NCBI GenBank assembly: GCA_963170155.1 | Contig: CAUJGP010000009.1 | Span: 1 to 64,000, forward strand | Length of the DNA stretch: 64,000 nucleotides | Reading direction: 5' to 3' | Origin: Bdellovibrionota bacterium | GTDB taxonomy: Bacteria; Bdellovibrionota; Bdellovibrionia; Bdellovibrionales; Bdellovibrionaceae | Shown here: positions 2,359-29,217 of the stretch, in pieces | Layout: each line of letters begins with the position of its first letter | How positions within the stretch are numbered: position 1 is the first letter of the stretch | The notes under the pieces: generated by a model | The model's database searches: none | The model's input: the letters and a program-made list of their open reading frames with translations, nothing else | Told to the model about the DNA's origin: nothing | Program-made: the position numbers and the translations under genes

Positions 2359-4827
2359 CTAATGCGTGGCATGAACTGATTGACCTGTGTATTGAGCCTT
2401 GAGGCCGCTTTCTGCTCCACCTCTGCTTTTAAAGAGTTCCTTAGCATTTTTGATATCCAAGGCATTGACCAGAACTTGATCTACATGGTCCACAAGAATA
2501 ACTTTAAGATCTTTTAGAATTTCTTTTGGAATATCTTTTAAGTCTTTTTCATTTTCTTTAGGACAGATGATAATCTTTATGCCTCCACGGTGAGCAGCTA
2601 GGATTTTTTCTTTGAGACCTCCGATGGCCAGAACTTTCCCGCGAAGGGAAATTTCTCCGGTCATTGCAACCATTCTTTTCACGGGAATTTTAGTAATAGC
2701 TGAAACAATACTTGTTGTTAAAGCAATCCCTGCGGAAGGACCATCTTTGGGAACAGCACCTTCTGGAAGGTGAATATGAACATCAATATTTTGAAAATAC
2801 TCTTTGCTAAGGCCAAAAAGAGGTCCTCGGGATCGCACGTAGCTCATCGCCGCAGTGCAAGATTCCTTCATGACATCTCCGAGTTGACCTGTGATTGTAA
2901 ACTTACTTGCTCCAGGAACAACACTGACTTCAACAGCAAGAAGGTCACCACCCACTTCAGTCCATGCCATACCATTGGTTAAGCCAATTTCGTTTTTTTC
3001 TTCGATAATACCAAACTTATACTTATGAGGGCCTAAGAGTTCGACAAGCTTTTTAGGCGTGACAACATATTTTCCTATGGTGGGTGCAGAGGATGTTGTT
3101 ATTTTTTTTCCTTTTTTCTCAGGCACAGCCATCATATCTGCTTTGACGATATCACGAGCCACTTTACGGCTGACATTGGCTAATTGTCGTTCAAGATTTC
3201 GGACCCCAGCTTCACGTGTGTAATATCGAATGATATTCTTAATAGTCTGATCCTGAATCTCAATCTTGCGGTCCTTCAATCCATGAGCTTCAATTTGTTT
3301 GGGGACTAAATAATTTTTGGCAATATGAAACTTTTCAGTTTCAGTGTAACCTTCAAGAGTGATCAGTTCCATCCGATCGAGGAGGGGACGAGGCACTGTA
3401 TGAAGCGTATTCGCCGTTGCAATGAACATGACTTTAGATAAATCATAATCTACTTCTAAATAATGGTCTTGAAACGTGTGGTTTTGCTCAGGATCCAAAA
3501 CCTCGAGCATGGCGGAGGCTGGGTCACCTCGGAAGTCTGAAGCCATTTTATCAATTTCATCGAGAAGTATCAGAGGATTTCCTTGATCTACTTTTCGTAG
3601 GGCTTGTAGGATTTTACCAGGCATAGCGCCTACGTAGGTTTTTCGGTGTCCTCGGATTTCAGCTTCATCGCGCACCCCTCCGAGGGAAATTCTGGCAAAA
3701 GGGCGATTGAGGGCCTGGGCAATTGAGCGGGCGAGTGAGGTTTTACCGACACCGGGAGGTCCCACCAAACATAAAATAGGCCCCTTCATATTTTTGGAAA
3801 GAGCAAGCACTGAAAGAAACTCGATAATTCTTTCCTTAACTTTTTCGAGACCCCAATGATCATGGTCGAGGATTTTCTCAGCCTCATTGATGTCATGACG
3901 GTCTTCGGAATACTCTTGCCAAGGAAGAGACAAAATCCAATCGATATAGTTGCGAACCACGGTGGCCTCCGCACTCATCGGAGACATCATTTTTAATTTT
4001 TTAATTTCTTTGTGAACTTTGTCTTTCGCTTCTTTGCTCATCTTTTTTGCTTTAGTTTTTTCTTCCAGCTCTTGAAGCTCCGCTTGGTAGTCGTCTTTTT
4101 CGCCAAGCTCTTTTTGAATCGCTTGCATTTGCTCGTTCAAATAATATTCTTTTTGGGATTTTTCCATTTGCTTTTTGACACGACTACGGATTTTACGCTC
4201 GACTTCAAGAATTTCGATTTCGCCAGTCATTAGATTGAGAAGATGTTCTAGGCGTTTGGCCGGATCAAAAATTTCAAGAACCTTTTGTTTTTCTTCTATT
4301 TTAAGATTCAGTTGAGCAACAATAATGTCCGCGAGCTCACCTTCGCTTTCAATAGTGGAAACTCGCATAAGGATTTCTGGCGGAATGCGTTTATTGAGCT
4401 TAACATAGGTTTCAAAAGTGGCTTTCACTGAGCGGATTAAGGCTTGAGCTTCTAGTTTGCTGCCGATCGCTTCTTCGATGATATCCACGTCTACGCGGAA
4501 AAAAGGTTCGGTAGACTGATAAGATTTAATAACAACTCTTTTTTTACCTTCAACTAAGACTTTAACTGTACCATCGGGAAGGCGCAAAAGCTGGATGATG
4601 GTGCCTACGGTTCCAACATCGTAGATATCTTTGGGGTCTGGGTTATTTGTCTTTGCATCTCTTTGAGCGGCAAGAACAATATCTGTTTGCTTACTCATTG
4701 CTTCTTCGAGGGCGCTGATGCTTTTTTCTCGCCCAACAAAGAGAGGCATCATCATGTGAGGAAAAATAATGAGGTCCCGAAGGGGAAGAAGAGGGAGAGA
4801 GTTGTTTTTTTTAGTATTTTCGCTCAT
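2359..4827 (-). CDS. lon: ATP-dependent protease Lon
   Basis: 822 residues, normal for bacterial LonA. The N-terminal substrate domain starts [15 protein letters not shown], followed by a coiled coil (about 185-260). The AAA+ module has Walker [10 protein letters not shown] and Walker B ILLDEIDK. The C-terminal protease domain has the Ser in PKDGPSAG and the Lys in GGLKEKI, the Ser-Lys dyad. It degrades damaged and regulatory proteins in the cytoplasm. The ATG follows AAGGAG. It lies downstream of clpX on the same strand, but a 406-base gap with hairpins suggests its own promoter. No key residue is missing. Confidence 0.97.
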
Positions 4828-8849: not shown

Positions 8850-8889
8850 AAAGCAGCGAAGTATTTTTTATTTCGCTGCTTTAATTTTT
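8850..8889. terminator. Bidirectional rho-independent terminator
   Basis: AAAGCAGCGAA (8850-8860) pairs perfectly with TTCGCTGCTTT (8872-8882), an 11-bp stem with an 11-base loop. AATTTTTC follows on the plus side, and T-rich sequence follows on the minus side. It separates the convergent pepA and diguanylate cyclase genes. Confidence 0.85.
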
Positions 8890-10256
8890 CAAGCAGCTAT
8901 TTTCTTGCTAAGAAGAGCACCGTTTCGGCCTGAATTTTTAACTTGGTAAAGAGCTTCATCTGCCGCAGCAATAAGATCGATGGTGGTCTTTCCATTTCTG
9001 GGGAAAACACTTAAACCAATACTGGCGGTGATTTTAAGAGGTTTTTCTTGATTAGGAATAGGAATAATAAGGCTTTCAATCGATTCTCGTAGTCTTTCTC
9101 CAATAAGATAGACATGTGACTCTTCGATATTAGGAAGAATGACGGCAAATTCCTCACCCCCGTAACGAGCGGCAACGTCTGTTGAACGGCAGAAATCTTT
9201 CAAGCAGTGAGCCGCGACTTTGAGAACAATGTCTCCGACTAAGTGCCCATAGGTGTCGTTTACTTTTTTAAAGTGATCCAAATCAAGAAGCAAAAGACCA
9301 AAAGTTTTTTTGCGTTCTCCATGCTCTCTGATCTCATTATCCAAGCGAACTTTGAAATACCGATGATTATAGAGATCGGTTAACTCATCGGTCATTGCTT
9401 TTTTAAACAGTTCTCGATTATCAAGAGAAAAGCTGAGGGGCTCACAAATGGTCTCTAAAAGATTTTCATCATTGTAAGAAAACTCCATTTTTTTTGCAAA
9501 AATAAAGTATTTTTGTCTTTCAGAATCATCAAGGTATTTAAAGCTGATCCAGGAATAACCATCTATTTTTTGGTAATGAAGGTCTCCTGCAATTAGGTGG
9601 GGCTTCACATTTTCTGCAAGATCCCGGATTGTTCTTTGTTCTAAGTCCAATTTGTTATTGGTCGTATAAGTGATGAGCTGAAGAGCTCCATTGCGTGTTT
9701 CCTGCTTGATGTACATAGCTAAATCGATATTTAGAATCCCTGAAAGATGAGCAAATAAATTTCTTAACATGACGAGAGGATCATCAAAGGTTGTGGTTCT
9801 TTCCAATACATCTCTAATTAAAGAAATTTGAAATAGATGCTGATCAAGGGCTTTGATAGTTTCTTCTTTTCTAGAGATTTCATCATGGTATTTGCGATTG
9901 AGAACATCTTCTAAAGAAACATCTTTGAGGTAGATTAAGACTTTAAAATCTTCTTCTGAGGTTTTCATGCTTTTCCAAGTTATTTGCAATCGACCGTCTT
10001 TACTTTTTGTCCTGAAGAGGGCCTCTCGAACAGGGGCTTCAAGGAGTGTTTTACAGCCAAGCTTCATTTTTTCCCAGTCAAAATCATCGATTTGTAAAAG
10101 TTCGGGCAAAGGTTTTTTACGAATCAGTGCGAGAGAAGATTCATCGATGAGATTGGCGAAGCTAGGATTAAAATAAACCGGACGTAAATCTTCGCTGATA
10201 ATGCAAATAGCATCAACAAAGTTATCAAAAATGTCTGGTTTAATTTCAAATTTCAC
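8889..10256 (-). CDS. Diguanylate cyclase with PAS-like and GAF-like input domains
   Basis: 455 residues. An N-terminal PAS-like domain (about 8-115, starting DNFVDAICIISEDLRPVYFN) is followed by a short coiled segment, a GAF-like region (about 150-280) and a GGDEF domain (about 290-450). The active-site loop is GGEEF (about 365-369), the metal-binding region reads LLLDLDHFKKVNDTYGH, and an inhibitory I-site RSTD sits five residues upstream. It should make cyclic di-GMP from GTP and be product-inhibited. No transmembrane segment is seen, so it is cytoplasmic. It is last in the cheY-cheX-pseudoCheA unit, 54 bases after the preceding gene, which suggests control by that phosphorelay. Confidence 0.9.
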   Translation of the reverse strand: MKFEIKPDIFDNFVDAICIISEDLRPVYFNPSFANLIDESSLALIRKKPLPELLQIDDFDWEKMKLGCKTLLEAPVREALFRTKSKDGRLQITWKSMKTSEEDFKVLIYLKDVSLEDVLNRKYHDEISRKEETIKALDQHLFQISLIRDVLERTTTFDDPLVMLRNLFAHLSGILNIDLAMYIKQETRNGALQLITYTTNNKLDLEQRTIRDLAENVKPHLIAGDLHYQKIDGYSWISFKYLDDSERQKYFIFAKKMEFSYNDENLLETICEPLSFSLDNRELFKKAMTDELTDLYNHRYFKVRLDNEIREHGERKKTFGLLLLDLDHFKKVNDTYGHLVGDIVLKVAAHCLKDFCRSTDVAARYGGEEFAVILPNIEESHVYLIGERLRESIESLIIPIPNQEKPLKITASIGLSVFPRNGKTTIDLIAAADEALYQVKNSGRNGALLSKKIAA

Positions 10257-10310
10257 AAAAAATGCTCCTTTTGCTTTCCAAAAATTAATATATACACATT
10301 AAAAATACAT

Positions 10311-11954
10311 TTAACTCACGGGTCTTAATGAGACTTTTATCTCTGAACCACCACCACTAATCCAATTCACTAAATCAGAATTAATTTCACTTACAAAAGG
10401 CAAGTGAATGTTTAACGAAACTGAAAACTCATCTTCGGATTTTATTTCTAACAACCCCCCAATATGATTAACGGCTTGATTAAGGGTTTCAAGTAATTCT
10501 TTTTCGGCAGTATCATTGGGGTTATTTATTTTTGATCCAAAAAAATAGTAGGCGGATATTAGGATTTTTTTATTTTTTTCTTCTCCAGAAAGATCAACGT
10601 GAATTTCAAGTTTACAGTTATTGTTCTCGTTTTCATTTTTGTGATTGATAATGTGATTAAAAATAGGATTTAGTTGATCGAAAAAATAAGAATAAAATTC
10701 GGGAATCACACGTATTTTCTTGGGGTCTGACAAGTGATATTCGATATTATTACTTTGGCTGATTGATTGCGCGTAGATTTTTGCTTCAAGGGGAGCGAAA
10801 AGACTTGCAAAAGGTACGGCTACAATTTCATCCACATAGTAATCTAGCAAGTCTGTAAGGCCCATTCTTAAAAGCTCTGCGCAAAACTTATAGATGTTTT
10901 CAACAGGAATTTCTTTGGTATAAGTTATTTTATTATCGAAAATAAAAATATGACGATATTTGTTTAAAAACCCATCAAGAGAGTCATAGATTTCTTGCCC
11001 CAGTAAATGAACTAAGTTTTCGCCTTCTTGAGGGTTCAGATTGATTTTAAAAAAAGTAAGAATTTCATCTTCAATTTGATGTATTTTATATCCGAGTGAA
11101 TACATACTTAAATTATTGAGTTCTAATTTAAGATGATGAAGACGATCCGTGAGGATTTTAGATTGATCTTGGACATCTCCTGTGCTGCCAAAGGTCCAGG
11201 AATTCAAAGTGTCCGCTGTTTCACGTGTTGCTTGGATCAGTCTGATAAAATTGGGTTTATCATTGAGGTATTTCATCACCATATCTGTGAATAGCCGATG
11301 CTCGTTGATGAGTTTTTCTGTTTCAAATAAATCAGATTGATCATGGAGGATCATTGCAATTTTTGTCAGAGCGTTGTTTTTGGGATGACGAATGGGTCTG
11401 AATTTTACATCAATAATTTTATTTTGTATACCAAAGTGGAAACCCTTGGGCGCCAAGCGAGCCAGTTGTTGAAAGGGGATTGCTTCCATAAAAACAAGAT
11501 TAAGCCAGTCTTGAAAGGATTCTTTTTTTTCTTGGGGGATAGAAATTATATCAATCAGTGATTCTCCCGTTGGATCTTTTCCTAAAAATTTTTTTGCTAC
11601 GGAAGAGGCTAGTTCCACTTTGGCATTGTCACGCTTAATGATGAGGTAGCCGTCGTCTAATGTATTTAACAAGGAGTCAAGTTCAATGAGGTCGTCAGTG
11701 TTAGTTTTATGATTTGAAGGCAATGCTTGATTTAAGTGGGAATCATCCCTATTTATTTTTTTTTCGAACTCTAGGTATGTTGAATCAACAAGGTTAAAAA
11801 AAGATTCTAAATGGGAGATATGGTCAAGTGCTTTAGAATGCTTGGTTAAGGAATACTCTTTTTTAACAAAAATTAAAAAATCATGGATTTCTTGGTTGAC
11901 GCCAACAGAGTCGAATATCTTTTTGAATTGCTCTTGAAGAATATTACTTTTCAT
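10311..11954 (-). CDS. Degenerate CheA-like protein (PAS, Hpt-like, pseudo-kinase)
   Basis: 547 residues. A helical N-terminus (1-60) and a PAS-like domain (about 90-205) precede an Hpt-like helical segment with HHLKLELNNL around His273-274, where CheA has HxLKG. A stretch reading AVPFASLFAPLEAKI aligns with the CheA segment just before its kinase domain. Where CheA has the N-box HLxRNAxDHG, this has NPIFNHIINHKNENEN. The G1 box DxGxG is absent, yet a terminal strand-helix region (HIGGLLEIKS, NIHLPF) still resembles the kinase fold. So it is a CheA relative that probably cannot bind ATP. It lies between cheX (40 bases) and the diguanylate cyclase (54 bases). A role as phosphoacceptor or scaffold is inference. 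Confidence 0.65.
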   Translation of the reverse strand: MKSNILQEQFKKIFDSVGVNQEIHDFLIFVKKEYSLTKHSKALDHISHLESFFNLVDSTYLEFEKKINRDDSHLNQALPSNHKTNTDDLIELDSLLNTLDDGYLIIKRDNAKVELASSVAKKFLGKDPTGESLIDIISIPQEKKESFQDWLNLVFMEAIPFQQLARLAPKGFHFGIQNKIIDVKFRPIRHPKNNALTKIAMILHDQSDLFETEKLINEHRLFTDMVMKYLNDKPNFIRLIQATRETADTLNSWTFGSTGDVQDQSKILTDRLHHLKLELNNLSMYSLGYKIHQIEDEILTFFKINLNPQEGENLVHLLGQEIYDSLDGFLNKYRHIFIFDNKITYTKEIPVENIYKFCAELLRMGLTDLLDYYVDEIVAVPFASLFAPLEAKIYAQSISQSNNIEYHLSDPKKIRVIPEFYSYFFDQLNPIFNHIINHKNENENNNCKLEIHVDLSGEEKNKKILISAYYFFGSKINNPNDTAEKELLETLNQAVNHIGGLLEIKSEDEFSVSLNIHLPFVSEINSDLVNWISGGGSEIKVSLRPVS

Positions 11955-11994
11955 GAGAATCGACTTTCTGCGCTTAACACACGTTGCTTTCTTA

Positions 11995-12507
11995 TTATTG
12001 TTGTTTGTGAAGTACTAGCTCAATAATAGCTTCTTCACCTTCTAAATCATATTTCATTACCAGTTTATGTCCACTGAGAGCACTAACGACAGTGTGATTA
12101 TCGCCAATAATGACAACAGGAAGGCACATTTGATAATGATAACCTTGCATGTTTAATTCTTCTTTCGCAATACCATGAATGACATTTGATATTTCAGCCA
12201 CGCCGCCAATAACTTTATTATCCAAAGTCGTTAGTTCTTCTCCGTAGACGCGACTCAATAGTTTGAGAATGGTGTCTTGTTTGAACCGAATGGCAAGAGT
12301 TCCTTCTATGGATTCTTGGATAAAAGCGATGATACCTGAAATTTCATATCGTTCTTCGATGGCTTTATTATGCCTTTCTGAGCTTTTAAGAACGGGAATA
12401 ATACCTGTGAATGCCCCAAAGGTTTCAGTTATCGCTTTGTTGATAATGCGAGAGATATCTTCATCTAGAGTTAAATGGCTATCGTTGAGTTTGGGTGCGG
12501 CACTCAT
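11995..12507 (-). CDS. cheX: CheX-like chemotaxis phosphatase
   Basis: 170 residues from the ATG at 12507, chosen because AGAGAGGG precedes it; a longer frame from 12540 overlaps cheY and has no ribosome site. The CheC/CheX/FliY-family motif ExxN is seen in AEISNVIHGIAKEEL, followed by LPVVIIGD. CheX dimers dephosphorylate CheY-P. It starts 13 bases after the cheY stop, so the CheY/CheX pair is encoded together and this protein probably resets that regulator. Confidence 0.85.
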   Translation of the reverse strand: MSAAPKLNDSHLTLDEDISRIINKAITETFGAFTGIIPVLKSSERHNKAIEERYEISGIIAFIQESIEGTLAIRFKQDTILKLLSRVYGEELTTLDNKVIGGVAEISNVIHGIAKEELNMQGYHYQMCLPVVIIGDNHTVVSALSGHKLVMKYDLEGEEAIIELVLHKQQ

Positions 12508-12520
12508 GTTCACCCTCTCT

Positions 12521-12925
12521 CTACGCCGCGCTTGTAGCATTTAAAATTCTCTCAATTTTACTGGATAATTGACGAGGAGAGAATGGTTTGATCACATAAT
12601 CGGAAACTCCAGCTTTAAGAGCGATCACAACGCTTTTTTGTTCTCGTTCTGCGGTAATCATGATGAAGGGTAAACTTTTGTGTTTTTCATCTGACTTGCA
12701 CTTTTGCACCACTTCAATGCCAGTCATTTTTGGCATATTCCAATCAAGAAAAACCAGGTCAAAAGGTTGCCCATCTTCATTTGCTTTATCTATTTTTTCA
12801 ATGGCATCGACTCCGTCAACAGCTTCGGTGAGGTCGGTGTAGCCAAGTTGCTTTAAAGCCTGCTTCAGTAAAGATCTGATCATTTCAAAGTCATCAACAA
12901 GTAGAATTTTTAAAGGCTTACCCAT
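12521..12925 (-). CDS. cheY: Single-domain response regulator, CheY-like
   Basis: 134 residues, receiver domain only. The acidic pocket is Asp11-Asp12, the phosphoacceptor Asp61 lies in LDWNMP, the switch Thr91 in MITAE and the conserved Lys113 in VIKPF. There is no output domain, so it acts by binding a partner. It is first of the unit with cheX, the pseudo-CheA and a diguanylate cyclase. The complete cheA at 19932-21662 is a candidate phosphodonor. Whether it talks to flagellar motors or to the cyclase cannot be told. Confidence 0.93.
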   Translation of the reverse strand: MGKPLKILLVDDFEMIRSLLKQALKQLGYTDLTEAVDGVDAIEKIDKANEDGQPFDLVFLDWNMPKMTGIEVVQKCKSDEKHKSLPFIMITAEREQKSVVIALKAGVSDYVIKPFSPRQLSSKIERILNATSAA

Positions 12926-18389: not shown

Positions 18390-19145
18390 ATGAGTGAAGA
18401 AGTAAAAAAGAAAGCATCATCGGAACTTATTTTCGTGAAAGGTGGAGACGAGGGGTTGCCCACAAACCTCAAGCTCCTTCAGCACGATGATATCACTCTT
18501 TTAGCTTTGCAATTAGCTTGTCCTATTCGCTGGGAACCTGATACTAAACAACGTTTTGAAAACATTCATGAACTCCTCAATGTTGTCGCGGTTACCGTGG
18601 AAACGCGCTTTTTCTCTAGTCTTATTTTAATTGGTTCCAATAACTCAAAAGTTTCTTTTTTAGATTTAGCGAGTGATTTATCAAAGCAAATTGGAAACAT
18701 CATAAAGACAGCAAAAGAAAAGATCTACTTCATTGAATCTTTTCAGTTGTTAGATCCTGCACAATTGGAATGGAATTTTTTTGTCAAAATGAGTGATTAT
18801 TGTTTTATGCAGGAGACTTCAAAGGGGCCTTTTTTCACGGGATATTTTCGCTTGGAAAAAACAAAAGATGATGAGCGTTTTACAAATCGAACCATTCATT
18901 CCATGTCTGAAGGAGAGGTTGCAGAGCAAGATATATATCTTTATTTTGCTAAAAATGATCGTTACATTAAAATTCTCAAAAAAGGCGAGACTTTAGAGAA
19001 GACTAAAATTGATCGCTTAGAATCCAGAGGGGTTAAAGATCTCTATATCTCATCTGATCAGGATATTGAAACCCAGCAGCGCCGCGTTCGTTTGATTCTT
19101 CTTGATTTATTGGAAGATTATTCTAGTTTGACGGGCGCGAGCTAA
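18390..19145 (+). CDS. Cytoplasmic protein of unknown function
   Basis: 251 residues with no signal peptide. The C-terminal part (about 175-220), IYLYFAKNDRYIKILKKGET then RLESRGVKDLYIS, resembles a small module seen in regulatory proteins of this bacterial group in which a level or state value is stored, but I cannot name it. The N-terminal half is not recognised. The ATG directly abuts GGAGG with no spacer; an in-frame TGA just upstream excludes an earlier start, so the ribosome site is unusual. Confidence 0.6.
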   Translation: MSEEVKKKASSELIFVKGGDEGLPTNLKLLQHDDITLLALQLACPIRWEPDTKQRFENIHELLNVVAVTVETRFFSSLILIGSNNSKVSFLDLASDLSKQIGNIIKTAKEKIYFIESFQLLDPAQLEWNFFVKMSDYCFMQETSKGPFFTGYFRLEKTKDDERFTNRTIHSMSEGEVAEQDIYLYFAKNDRYIKILKKGETLEKTKIDRLESRGVKDLYISSDQDIETQQRRVRLILLDLLEDYSSLTGAS

Positions 19146-19931: not shown

Positions 19932-21662
19932 TCAAGCGTATCTTGTCGTTGTAAATGACTTTGTTCCTTGAATGTAGTCTCTTAAATATCGAAGATCCAG
20001 GATGATCGCTGGATTTCCATCCCCTAGGATTGTAACGCCACTGGCTCCAGGGCAAGTGGTCATTTCTGGGCTAATAGGTTTTTGAACAGTTCTATGAACA
20101 CCAAGGACTTGATTCACTAAAAAACCCACTTTTATTCGATCTATGGTTGCAATTAAAATCATATCTTTTTTAGGGTCTCGGTGATCAACTCCGTCATTAC
20201 GTCCAAGGATACTGCTAATATCGAGAAGTTCTAAGATTTCATCGCGAATTTGAATCACGCGGCTATTAGAGTCTACATTTAATCCTTTGGTATCTTGAGC
20301 CTTAACAATTTCATGAATTTGTGAGGATGGAATAATGAATTTTTGACCACTAATCACAACTAATAATCCATTGAAGAGAGAGAGGGTGAGTGGAAGCTTG
20401 ATCCTAAATAAAGTTCCTTTATTAACTTCAGAAAAAATTTCATAAGAACCTTTGAGATGCAACGTTGTTTCTTTAACGATATTCATTCCTACGCCACGTC
20501 CTGAAAGCTCAGAAGCTTGCTCTTTAGTTGAAAAACCATCTTCAAAGATAAGATTAAGGAGTTCTTCTCGAGTTTTATTATGATTGGGAGGAATAATTCC
20601 AAGAGAAATTGCTTTGTCAGCTAGCTTTTGAGGATTGAGTCCGGTTCCATCATCTTCAATTTCAATGATAAAGGAAACCCCCTCTCGTCGTGCTCGTAAG
20701 TGAATCGTACCGCTTTCTGGCTTGCCTTTGGCTAGTCTCTCGCTGGGAGATTCTAAACCATGATCAACAGCATTTCGGGCGAGATGAATAAGGGGGTCTG
20801 AGAGTTGATCCACAATTACTTTATCTAATTCATTTTCAGCACCGATCAAGACACATTGAGTTTGTTTTCCGGTCACTTGAGCCGCATCCCTGATTGCTCT
20901 TTCGAGTTTGGAAAAAGTGGATTTCAAATTAATCATTCTCAATGTAAGAGTGGATTGTTGTAAGTCAAAAGCCGTTTTTTTAAGATTGAAAATCGAGCGA
21001 ATGATATCATCCCTGTATTTATTCAAATCTTCTTTGTAAAAATCGAGCGCTGATAAATAAATAACCTGTTCTCCAAAAGCATTGAGAAGGTCATCAATTT
21101 TTTTAAGAGGAACCCTAATAAATTCATCAACCGCATCTTTATTAGCATGGTTTTGAGCTTGATTGAGTGTGCTGGGATTTTTAGGGGAATCAGAGGGAGG
21201 AGGGTCAGATATTTTTTTTGTTTCTGATTGAGGCTTCGAGTTGGGCTTAATTGGAGGAGCTTCTTTGTTCTCAGCTTCTGTTTGTACGGCCATAATTTTA
21301 GCTTTGAGCTGGGCATGATCTAGTTTGATAGTTCTATCTTTTTTCAAGAGTTTGACGTCATTTCGGAGGCGATCAATACACTCTAGAAGAGTATTGGTGA
21401 CTTTTGTTGTCAGTGCGGTTTCACCGCTCTTGAGAGCTACTAAAAGGTTTTCTAGATGATGGGAAAAGTTCGCAAGATCATCAAAGCCAACCGCTTTTGA
21501 TGATCCTTTGAAATTATGAAAGACTCTTTTAATTTGATCAAAAGATCCACTATCTCCTTTTGCTTTTTCAATATTAAGACAAAGTGATTCGGCCTGGTCA
21601 ATGAGTTCTTCGGCCTCAACTAAAAAGCCATCCTGCAAGTTCTTAATAAACTCATCATTCAT
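19932..21662 (-). CDS. cheA: Chemotaxis-type histidine kinase CheA
   Basis: 576 residues. The N-terminal Hpt domain has phosphoacceptor His49 in VFHNFKGSSKAVGF. A proline/lysine-rich linker (about 130-180) follows; no CheY-binding P2 domain is recognisable. Then come the dimerisation helices, a kinase domain with N-box HLARNAVDHGLE, G1 EDDGTGLN and G2 GRGVGM, and a CheW-like C-terminus (about 430-560). All catalytic boxes are intact. No receptor or cheW is near. It is a candidate phosphodonor for the cheY at 12521-12925. The gene stands alone on the minus strand, 265 bases downstream of rny. Confidence 0.95.
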   Translation of the reverse strand: MNDEFIKNLQDGFLVEAEELIDQAESLCLNIEKAKGDSGSFDQIKRVFHNFKGSSKAVGFDDLANFSHHLENLLVALKSGETALTTKVTNTLLECIDRLRNDVKLLKKDRTIKLDHAQLKAKIMAVQTEAENKEAPPIKPNSKPQSETKKISDPPPSDSPKNPSTLNQAQNHANKDAVDEFIRVPLKKIDDLLNAFGEQVIYLSALDFYKEDLNKYRDDIIRSIFNLKKTAFDLQQSTLTLRMINLKSTFSKLERAIRDAAQVTGKQTQCVLIGAENELDKVIVDQLSDPLIHLARNAVDHGLESPSERLAKGKPESGTIHLRARREGVSFIIEIEDDGTGLNPQKLADKAISLGIIPPNHNKTREELLNLIFEDGFSTKEQASELSGRGVGMNIVKETTLHLKGSYEIFSEVNKGTLFRIKLPLTLSLFNGLLVVISGQKFIIPSSQIHEIVKAQDTKGLNVDSNSRVIQIRDEILELLDISSILGRNDGVDHRDPKKDMILIATIDRIKVGFLVNQVLGVHRTVQKPISPEMTTCPGASGVTILGDGNPAIILDLRYLRDYIQGTKSFTTTRYA

Positions 21663-25549: not shown

Positions 25550-26818
25550 TTGTTCCATGTAAAAGTATCTAAAAAACTTTTAGGCCTTTTGATTCTTGCA
25601 TTATTAGTGGGATCGCTGTTTCTTTACTTTCTAAAAAAACAGCGTGCAGAAAACCCCATTCGGATTGGCATACTTTATTCTGAATCCATGATTACATCTT
25701 TCTCGAAAGAGTCTTTTTTAGCTGCTGCTGGTTTAGCAGTTCAAGAGATCAATAAAAAGGGAGGTCTTTTAGGGCGTCTTTTGGAGGTTCGTTCTATTGA
25801 TGGCGACGGCAAGTTCTTTGAACAAGACCTAGAAACTTGGATGGCCGCTGAGAATATTCATTTTCTTTTTGGTTGCTTAACAACTCGTTGTTTATCTCAT
25901 GTCAAACCCATTATTGAACAAAGGCAAGGACTTCTCTTTTTTTTAAATGCCTACGAAGGATTTGATCAATCATCAAATGTTATTTATTTGGGCCCGGTTC
26001 CTAATCAACAAATTATTCCAGGGCTCCGATGGGCCTTGGATCATTTAGGTTTGAATTTTTATTTAGTGGGAGCTAAAAACAGGGAGTCTTGGGTTGCTCA
26101 TCAAATGGCTTTTGACTTGTCTAAAATTTCATCGGCCAAGATTTCAGGAGAGGAATTGATTTCTGAGGAAATTATAGAGGCTAAGGATACAAAGAAAATT
26201 TTTTCAAAATCCATTTCTGAGATAAAAAAGTTAAAACCTCAATTCATATTCAATACCCTAAAAGGGAAAGCTTTAGAGCTTTTTGTACAAAGTTTGGCCG
26301 AAGAGGGCATGAATGATTATCCGCTTTTATTTTCGAATTTAGATGAACAAGTGGCTTACGCTTTAAGCCATAAATATAAAATAAAAAATATTTATAGTTT
26401 AAATGATTACTTTTCTGGGGTTCCCATTGAATCTAATCGCCGATTTGTTGCGAATCTGAAGCAGACTTTAGGCGCAGAGGCTTTTATCAGTGCACCCATG
26501 GAAAGAGTTTATACAGCTATTAATCTTTGGGCTGAAACAGTTAAACAAAAGAAAACATTGGACCCTCTTTATGTCAATACAGAGACTCTTCTGCGCCAAT
26601 CTTATCCCGGGCCTTCTGGAGTGGTCGCAGTGGATGCCGTCAATCGCCATACTTGGAAGTTTTTTATGGTTTTACAGTGGAATAAAAAAGGGAGTTTCGA
26701 GATTTTAGACCGCTCTCTTTTTCCAATCAAACCATCTCCTTGGCCCGTGTATCGGACTCGAGAAGAATGGCGAGAGATAATGAAAGCTAAGCAAAAAAGC
26801 CAGGGGATTTTCAATTGA
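25550..26818 (+). CDS. Membrane-anchored periplasmic binding protein (Peripla_BP_6/AmiC-UrtA-like)
   Basis: 422 residues. A single N-terminal hydrophobic anchor ([18 protein letters not shown]) precedes a type I periplasmic binding fold: [35 protein letters not shown], then an inter-lobe segment around [19 protein letters not shown]. This resembles the amide/urea/branched-chain amino acid binders. The start is TTG behind GGAGGGAGAGG. Its stop overlaps the TTG start of the hybrid kinase (TTGA at 26815-26818), so it is very likely the ligand-sensing partner of that kinase rather than part of a transporter; no permease is near. Confidence 0.8.
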
Positions 26819-29217
26819 TTTCAAGAAAAATTTTTCCAAGATTGATGATTAGCTTTTTTGTCCTTTCTCCTCTACCGTTAGCTTGTTTAGCCTGGTTTTA
26901 TTTAATCACGTTTGAGCCAGAGATGATGGAAACTATTGGGGATAATTTGGTTTCTATTGCAGATAAAAAGACGGATCAAATCAACTCGTATTTGAATGAA
27001 AAGATGACGGAAGTCACAATATTATCCAAAGCGCATTACACTTTTTTGACGCTTCAAAAAATGATGTCGGAATTTAAAGGGCCCAAATCCATTACGGATG
27101 CTTCTTATCAAAAAAGTTTGTTTTTCTACAGACCATTTTTTCAAATGGCTAACGAGACGGCAGGGTATTACGACATCATTCTCATTGATAAAAAAGGCAA
27201 TATCGTTTTTTCAGTGGTCCATGAGTCGGATCTTGGCACGAATCTTTTGGATAAATCCACAGACACGACGGATCTGGCTGTTGTTTTCAGAGATACCATG
27301 CGATTTTTAGATACACAAATTTTATTGAGTAAATCTTATCAAGCGTCCATGGGGCGTCCGGCTATTTTCATTGTTCAGCCTGTATTTCATCGGGATGAGC
27401 TTCTTGGAGCAATCGCGGTTCAACTGGACGTGGATCAAATTGAATCTGTTATCGCGGATAATACAGGGTTGGGAGCCACCGGTGAGACACTTTTAGCACA
27501 GAGAGGCGCGACCGAAGCTCTATATGTGGGACCGTTAAAGTATGAGCGAAATGCTCCGCTGAAGTTTTCTCTTCCTCTCAGTCGATTATCAGAGCCCATG
27601 CATGCCGCTCTAACGGGTGAAAGCAGCACGGGAGTCACTCTTGATGAAAGCAAGAAAGAAGTTTTGGCTGTTTGGAGGTACATTTCACCTTTAAGATTGG
27701 GGATTGTTTCTAAAGTGGATAAGGATGAGGCTTATCAACCCATTTATCGCCTTAGAAAGACTGTTTTTTTATCGTTGGTTTTACTCTTAATTTTAGGAAC
27801 CATTTTTGCCAATGTATTGGCTCGGAGTTTTGTTGGTCCTTTGGAACAGTTCATGCGAGTCACCCGGTTGATTGCCACAGGTCAACTTACAGAGAGGGTT
27901 CCTCAACAGGAGATTGCTGAATTGGACAGTATGGCTCAAAGCTTTAATTTCATGGCTGGGAGTATTGAAGAACAACAAAGTTTATTGGAAGCCAGAGTTG
28001 AAGAGAAAACAAAGGATTTACAAACCGCGAATGAACATTTGACCCAGGCGAAAGAACTAGCAGAGGCCGCAAGTCGTTCAAAGAGTGAATTTTTGGCAAA
28101 TATGAGTCATGAAATTAGAACTCCGATGAACGCTATTTTGGGTCTCACTGAGCTGGTTTTGAACACCCCACTGAATTCAGAACAAAAAGATTTTTTACGG
28201 AAGGTCTATTCATCCTCAAGAGCACTTCTTTTGATGCTGAATGATATTTTAGACTACGCTAAAATTGAATTTGGAAAGATGAATATTGAAAGCATCCCTT
28301 TGAATCTTCGTCGATTGGTTGAAGAGAGTCAGGACCTTTTTTCTGCTCAGGTAAGTCAGAAAGGTTTAGAGTGGAAGCTTGAGGTAGATCCTCATGTACC
28401 GGAAGAAGTCATGGGTGATCCCATGAGATTATCACAAGTGCTCAATAACCTGGTTGGGAATGCCATTAAATTCACAGAGAAAGGGACCATTGCTGTGAAA
28501 GTTTGGTCTCACCAGCTCGAAACGGGAAATTATGAAGTGTCTTTTATGGTTTCAGATACTGGAATTGGACTGAGCCCAGAACAAAAAGCAGGCCTCTTCT
28601 CGGCGTTTACTCAAGCGGATAACTCCATTACACGAAAATATGGGGGGACAGGACTTGGTTTATCCATTTGTTTAAAATTGATTAAAATGATGAATGGGGA
28701 CATTAATGTTCATAGCGAGCTGGCGAAGGGTTCTGACTTTACTTTTCATATCCCGTTTTCACCTGTCCCTAAGAATTTTTCTCACTTTTCAGATCAGCTA
28801 AGTCAAACGCGGATTCATTTGGAACCATCAACTCAAATTAATTTTAACTTTCAGGGAGCGCGAATTTTATTGGTGGAAGATAATTTGGTAAACCAATTAG
28901 TCGCCAATCAATTGTTAAAAAAACTAGGTGTGGATGTTGCTATTGCTAATCATGGTGGTGAAGCCATTGATCGATTAGAAAAAGAAGAGTTTCGATTGGT
29001 TCTCATGGATCTTCACATGCCTATTATGGACGGCTATGAAGCGACGAAAAGGATCAAGAGCAATCCTAAATACCAAAATTTGCCAATTGTAGCTTTAACT
29101 GCAGCCGTCATGCCTCAAGACAGGGATCAATGCATGAAGTTAGGAATTGTTGATTTTGTTGCCAAACCAATTGATTTACAAGGCTTAGGCCTGGTTTTGA
29201 ACCGATGGATTAAATAG
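26815..29217 (+). CDS. Hybrid sensor histidine kinase (Cache-HAMP-HisKA-HATPase-REC)
   Basis: 800 residues. The first transmembrane helix is at about 9-30 and a periplasmic Cache-like region spans about 35-310. The second helix is [19 protein letters not shown], followed by HAMP (about 340-395). The HisKA box has His432 in [16 protein letters not shown]-binding boxes are [16 protein letters not shown] and [11 protein letters not shown]-terminal receiver has Asp732 in [11 protein letters not shown] and the Lys in VAKPID. All key residues are present. It is coupled to the upstream binding protein, a TorT/TorS-like arrangement. No DNA-binding partner is adjacent, so the output is unknown. Confidence 0.93.

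Follow-up and report, generated by a model that had tools for sequence, protein, structure and literature searches.

The window analysed here, a 64,000-nucleotide stretch of DNA, comes from a relative of the predatory Bdellovibrio and carries a four-gene unit on its minus strand, encoding a CheY (12521-12925), a CheX (11995-12507), a degenerate CheA-like protein hereafter termed pseudo-CheA or pCheA (10311-11954), and a diguanylate cyclase (DGC; 8889-10256). With the cheX start set at the ATG at 12507, which matches the start of its paralogue (a longer open reading frame opens at 12540), the coordinates, common strand, and intergenic gaps of 13, 40, and 54 bases given in the first-pass annotation were all borne out, as was the lack of any CheW or receptor gene inside the unit. 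The DGC gene begins at a GTG codon preceded by a good ribosome-binding site (AAAGGAG), no intrinsic terminator was called in the 54-base gap between it and the pCheA gene, and a terminator-like hairpin with a T tract occurs only past the DGC gene, at 8850-8882. Situated where the DGC gene and an aminopeptidase gene converge, and not assigned to either strand as a feature, this hairpin is likely a shared terminator; its 14-pair stem is listed on the plus strand, and with A and T on its flanks it could work in both directions. The DGC gene would probably be co-transcribed with cheY, cheX, and the pCheA gene.

The four MCP signalling domains of the genome are all encoded outside the unit, and a CheA with a CheW domain is encoded 7 kb away, at 19932-21662. 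Two genes from the latter, on the plus strand (18390-19145), lies a gene for a 251-aa protein with no Pfam family over the cut-off; also on the plus strand (25550-29217), a periplasmic binding protein gene overlaps the gene for a Cache-HAMP hybrid histidine kinase by a few bases, and the two products likely form a sensor pair.

The window CheY is a stand-alone receiver with an intact phospho-site (Pfam Response_reg, 1.1e-27), retaining in alignment the equivalents of the DD pair, phospho-Asp, Thr, Tyr, and Lys. Membership of the window CheX in the CheY-P phosphatase family follows from its score above the cut-off for PF13690 (5.9e-13) and its E..N catalytic motif; it matches the CheX/CheC-like structures 3iic, 3h2d, 6vpw, and 1xko, and its AEISN segment aligns with the E..N of the solved structures 3iic and 3h2d, making it a putative CheY-P phosphatase. 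CheX on its own is widespread (100/140 genomes). Another cheY-cheX pair, with no kinase gene, is found on contig C4 of the same genome (L035, 6803-7737), and a similar pair exists in genomes G017 and G045.

The DGC has weakly matched PAS and GAF-like (DUF3369-like) domains and a GGDEF domain (PF00990, 9.9e-51), with no receiver domain. Aligned to WspR and to its orthologues, it displays GGEEF with RSTD five residues upstream, i.e., an RxxD I-site, so that the intact active and inhibitory motifs read earlier from the sequence hold up; by the GG(D/E)EF and RxxD criteria it is a predicted active diguanylate cyclase. At its N-terminus, the PAS and linker share homology with the corresponding parts of CheA3-type kinases found across the order (hmmsearch E about 5e-26; hhalign probability 99.8). 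Kinases of PAS-PAS-Hpt-HATPase architecture with this DGC-like PAS and linker occur at about one per genome in the family, with the window genome's own copy on contig C24 (L036, 8023-10017). Sensory modules are therefore common to these kinases and DGCs, and the homology shows that input domains have been exchanged; it does not show physical contact.

The third protein, pCheA, is composed of a PAS domain, an Hpt domain with Leu at the H+4 position, a short P3, and a remnant P4. Taken alone, its sequence scored for no CheA domain in Pfam, giving only a weak PAS match, and a single-sequence scan of the genome contigs with pCheA returned no match. Its origin becomes visible through CheA2, a paralogue that this genome encodes on contig C2 and to which it is 40% identical over residues 3-445 (E 2.8e-102); a profile of the family of that paralogue matches the CheA P3-P4 structures 1b3q and 1i58 (E about 1e-28). 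Judging by this PAS-Hpt-P3-P4 homology, pCheA is a putative derivative of a CheA-like kinase without P5, and indeed the CheW-like P5 family PF01584 was found in none of pCheA, CheA2, and CheA3. An alignment-based scan with the pCheA family recovered only the two modules of genome G077 (Bdellovibrionaceae MAG Jr-16oct17-292) and two distant kinases. When pCheA alone was compared with the PDB, a telomere protein matched, which was rejected as chance. An AlphaFold model built from 3 sequences reached a mean pLDDT of 44.7, with the Hpt helices (residues 233-332) mostly at 70-86 and the rest low, and a PDB fold search with this low-confidence model gave only a general histidine-kinase resemblance.

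The description of pCheA as a CheA-derived protein without ATP-binding boxes was correct and, with the Hpt motif changed as well, understated. Among 54 family members, pCheA is the sole one missing all three of the N, G1, and G2 boxes of P4, with each of the other 53 matching at least two of them. In the Hpt domain, residues 272-278 (11121-11141, minus strand) read L-H273-H-L-K276-L277-E278; H273 and K276 are invariant in the alignments, and the Gly-Gly that follows this Lys in relatives is replaced by Leu-Glu at H+4 and H+5. In the aligned relatives H+4 is Gly or Ala. A regex count over the family also gave Ser or Asn in a few cases; the Ser hits fell outside the true motif and were discarded, the alignment giving LHTLKGG for L055. 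Of the hallmarks of a functional CheA, pCheA thus has neither ATP boxes, nor a small H+4 residue, nor a P5. In Ypd1, a large, hydrophobic, or charged residue at H+4 nearly abolishes phosphotransfer, while binding is reduced only modestly (PMC6341664). A phosphorelay running through pCheA, as first suggested for this unit, is unlikely given the Leu at H+4 as well as the absent kinase site.

What is conserved in pCheA is unevenly distributed. Relative to CheA2, identity is 53% in the Hpt and 53% in the P3-like region, 34% in the PAS, and 31% in P4 (with 53 gapped columns); the first two values compare with 45-47% between active kinases of different species, which suggests that selection still acts on these regions. 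The N-terminal 90 residues are only 16-18% identical to relatives, and the reading frame is open over 547 codons despite about 63% amino-acid difference from CheA2. In the CheA tree, pCheA is sister to CheA2 (90/88) and has the longer branch (1.33 vs. 0.47). The protein is fast-evolving and could be on its way to loss, and its short P3 may not support CheA-like dimerisation; the simplest reading, going by the pattern of conservation, is that of a protein probably retained for binding.

The C2 locus is arranged as cheX-FIST-cheA, with no cheY and with a divergent guaB upstream of cheX. CheA2 has all kinase boxes and an HSLKGG motif, its Pfam matches being Hpt (just under the cut-off) and HATPase. 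The window CheX is 65% identical to the C2 CheX, and the two copies group with the CheX of the G077 module on contig C11 (95/95). The CheY encoded in the FIST module of G077 has the window CheY as its nearest protein in the window's genome (59%), followed by the C4 CheY (41%). By eye, no motif common to the regions upstream of the window cheY and the C2 cheX was evident. The duplication, like the homology, the dead catalytic sites, and the complementary gene content, we take as established; that the window and C2 loci are complementary halves of one duplicated module is the best-supported reading, on account of this gene content, the CheX and (less firmly) CheA groupings, and the proximity of CheY to the G077 module CheY. 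The kinase partner of the window CheY is likely the C2 paralogue rather than the CheA at 19932-21662, and CheA2 could use the C4 CheY instead.

Comparison of about 50 neighbourhoods, with the genus of the window represented by one species, places these halves in a wider context. The order cheY-cheX-FIST-cheA is found on contig C14 of G077 and on contig C131 of G097, which belongs to another family and where the contig ends within cheA; cheY-FIST-cheA-cheX is found in G038, cheY-cheX-cheA on contig C11 of G077 and in G039 and G053, and cheA-cheY-cheX in G009. As a conserved module, the cheY-cheX-(FIST)-cheA arrangement is genuine and occurs in several families of this order. In the C14 module of G077, the cheX frame (L151, about 3290-3854) appears to be broken by a frameshift, either natural or an assembly error. 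In Bdellovibrio-like genomes (L054, L055, and L111), a conserved neighbourhood has a protein of about 720 aa with a FecR domain encoded ahead of a CheW-less CheA3 kinase, with a SpoIIE/HAMP/Cache phosphatase and a CheY nearby; the function of this neighbourhood is apparently undescribed.

The DGC does not share this history. Close orthologues were found in only two of 144 genomes of the class, G017 (61%) and G077 (50% and 49%), where they stand alone, none adjoining che genes and none with local synteny to the window; no GGDEF neighbour, sought by similarity to the window DGC, was seen at the other che loci examined. The four-gene unit is therefore unique in these data, with the DGC a separately acquired and probably late addition. 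Co-occurrence of the DGC and the module across the 144 genomes was set aside as evidence of a link, resting as it does on G000 and G077 only, since in the tree the DGCs of G098 do not belong to the clade of the window DGC. Of the earlier interpretation, the conserved cheY-cheX-cheA core thus stands and extends to other families, whereas the relay through pCheA is unlikely and the DGC has no place in the conserved order.

Our preferred reading, to which we give a probability of about 0.45, is that of a split duplicate in which CheA2 would signal to the window CheY, CheX would reset it, and pCheA would tune the exchange by binding, with c-di-GMP as a possible output. In this scheme, (i) a lineage-specific duplication would have split a cheY-cheX-(FIST)-cheA module over two loci, (ii) the FIST protein would regulate CheA2, (iii) CheA2 would phosphorylate the window CheY, which both CheX proteins would dephosphorylate, and (iv) pCheA, best kept in its Hpt and P3-like regions, would bind CheA2 and/or CheY without passing phosphate and would thereby tune or sequester the signal. 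(v) The downstream DGC would perhaps serve as an output, though separately acquired.

Other explanations differ mainly in the roles they give to the DGC and to pCheA. That CheY-P and/or pCheA directly gate the DGC, making the unit a phospho-signalling-to-c-di-GMP operon as the first-pass annotation proposed, strikes us as unlikely. The shared strand, the 54-base gap with its AAAGGAG site and no called terminator, and the hairpin placed only after the DGC gene would all suit such an operon; FIST-kinase systems do control c-di-GMP enzymes (PMC12570481), and two copies each of the close module and of the DGC family are found in G077, the other genome to have both. However, the DGC has PAS and GAF-like inputs of its own in place of a receiver, its orthologues lie away from che genes both in G077 and in G017 (where no such module was found), and the other che loci examined had no GGDEF neighbour resembling it. 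A bolder version of the binding model, in which pCheA, dead in catalysis and phosphotransfer alike, would be a dedicated binding regulator and the DGC a recruited output, such that CheX would set c-di-GMP without any chemoreceptor through a FIST-CheA-CheX-CheY system split by duplication between two unlinked, complementary loci, we regard as decidedly unlikely.

With respect to pCheA itself, a split kinase would have CheA2 phosphorylating the pCheA Hpt His in trans and pCheA acting as phosphodonor for CheY. The retention of the phospho-acceptor His and the H+3 Lys, in an Hpt domain that is among the best conserved parts of the protein, agrees with this idea, as does the trans-phosphorylation by a partner of a Rhodobacter sphaeroides CheA protein without a catalytic domain (PMC3591291); it is nonetheless improbable, with Leu and Glu in place of Gly-Gly and a bulky H+4 nearly abolishing transfer in Ypd1 (PMC6341664), and with the Hpt of CheA2 itself intact, so that a separate one would not be needed. 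Distinctly improbable, too, is the opposite extreme, in which pCheA would be a decaying remnant, the unit would be kept only for cheY and cheX, and the DGC would adjoin by chance. The absence of all kinase boxes, the loss of Gly from the Hpt, the long branch, and the divergent N-terminal 90 residues are what decay would leave behind, but the long frame has stayed open despite extensive divergence, and conservation of the Hpt and P3-like regions is roughly on a par with that seen when active kinases from different species are compared. We find it very improbable that the window CheY works in chemotaxis, flagellar or gliding, and receives its phosphate from the CheA with the CheW domain; that full-length CheA does lie 7 kb away and the genome does encode four MCP domains, yet both the window CheY and CheX are nearest to receptor-free FIST/CheA modules, and not to the C4 cheY-cheX pair.

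The main interest of the locus lies in a natural dead CheA paralogue within a split module. Dead kinases acting by binding are well known in eukaryotes; to our knowledge, few natural cases have been described of a dead CheA-type protein alongside a paralogue that is active. CheA2 and pCheA, together with two CheX proteins and one CheY, form a clean test set for a purely binding dead histidine kinase. The comparison also reveals that several families of the Bdellovibrio order have a CheA-CheX-CheY module that comes with a FIST sensor and no receptors, and the open-licence literature searched yielded no discussion of FIST and CheA together as one system.

In its logic, the nearest known system is NosP/NosK/NosR, in which a FIST sensor acts with a kinase and a response regulator bearing a c-di-GMP domain (PMC12570481). 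The two have in common a FIST gene beside a soluble kinase gene (at C2), a response regulator, and a possible c-di-GMP output. Unlike NosK, the kinase here is of CheA type, with its Hpt far from the catalytic domain; a bare CheY and a CheX phosphatase take the place of the fused regulator, the c-di-GMP enzyme being separate and without a REC domain; there is no single operon, the FIST and kinase genes lying on C2 and those for CheY and the DGC in the window; and the C2 FIST protein scores far below the cut-off of the NosP model (72 vs. 450 bits). With canonical CheA/CheX/CheY chemotaxis, the module shares a P3 and P4 that match CheA structures at the family level as well as typical CheX and CheY proteins, whereas a PAS input replaces the CheW domain, CheW, and receptors. 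The window DGC resembles Bdellovibrio DgcA-D, free-standing GGDEF enzymes with I-sites and known roles (PMC3271064), in being free-standing with a GGDEF domain and an I-site; it differs in not being their close orthologue (none was found in Bdellovibrio-like genomes except G077) and in having a PAS-GAF input common to CheA3-type kinases. Like the R. sphaeroides CheA3/CheA4 system, in which the active partner trans-phosphorylates a CheA protein that has no catalytic domain (PMC3591291), pCheA keeps an Hpt, has no working catalytic domain, and has an active partner, but in pCheA P3 and a remnant of P4 persist, P5 is missing, and the H+4 residue is bulky, and its partner CheA2 has an intact Hpt. 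The closest parallel for a dead kinase with an active paralogue is the laboratory-evolved pseudokinase ChrS, which forms a pseudokinase-kinase heterodimer with HrrS (PMC9491836); pCheA and CheA2 might likewise form a heterodimer, with the difference that pCheA is natural and CheA-like.
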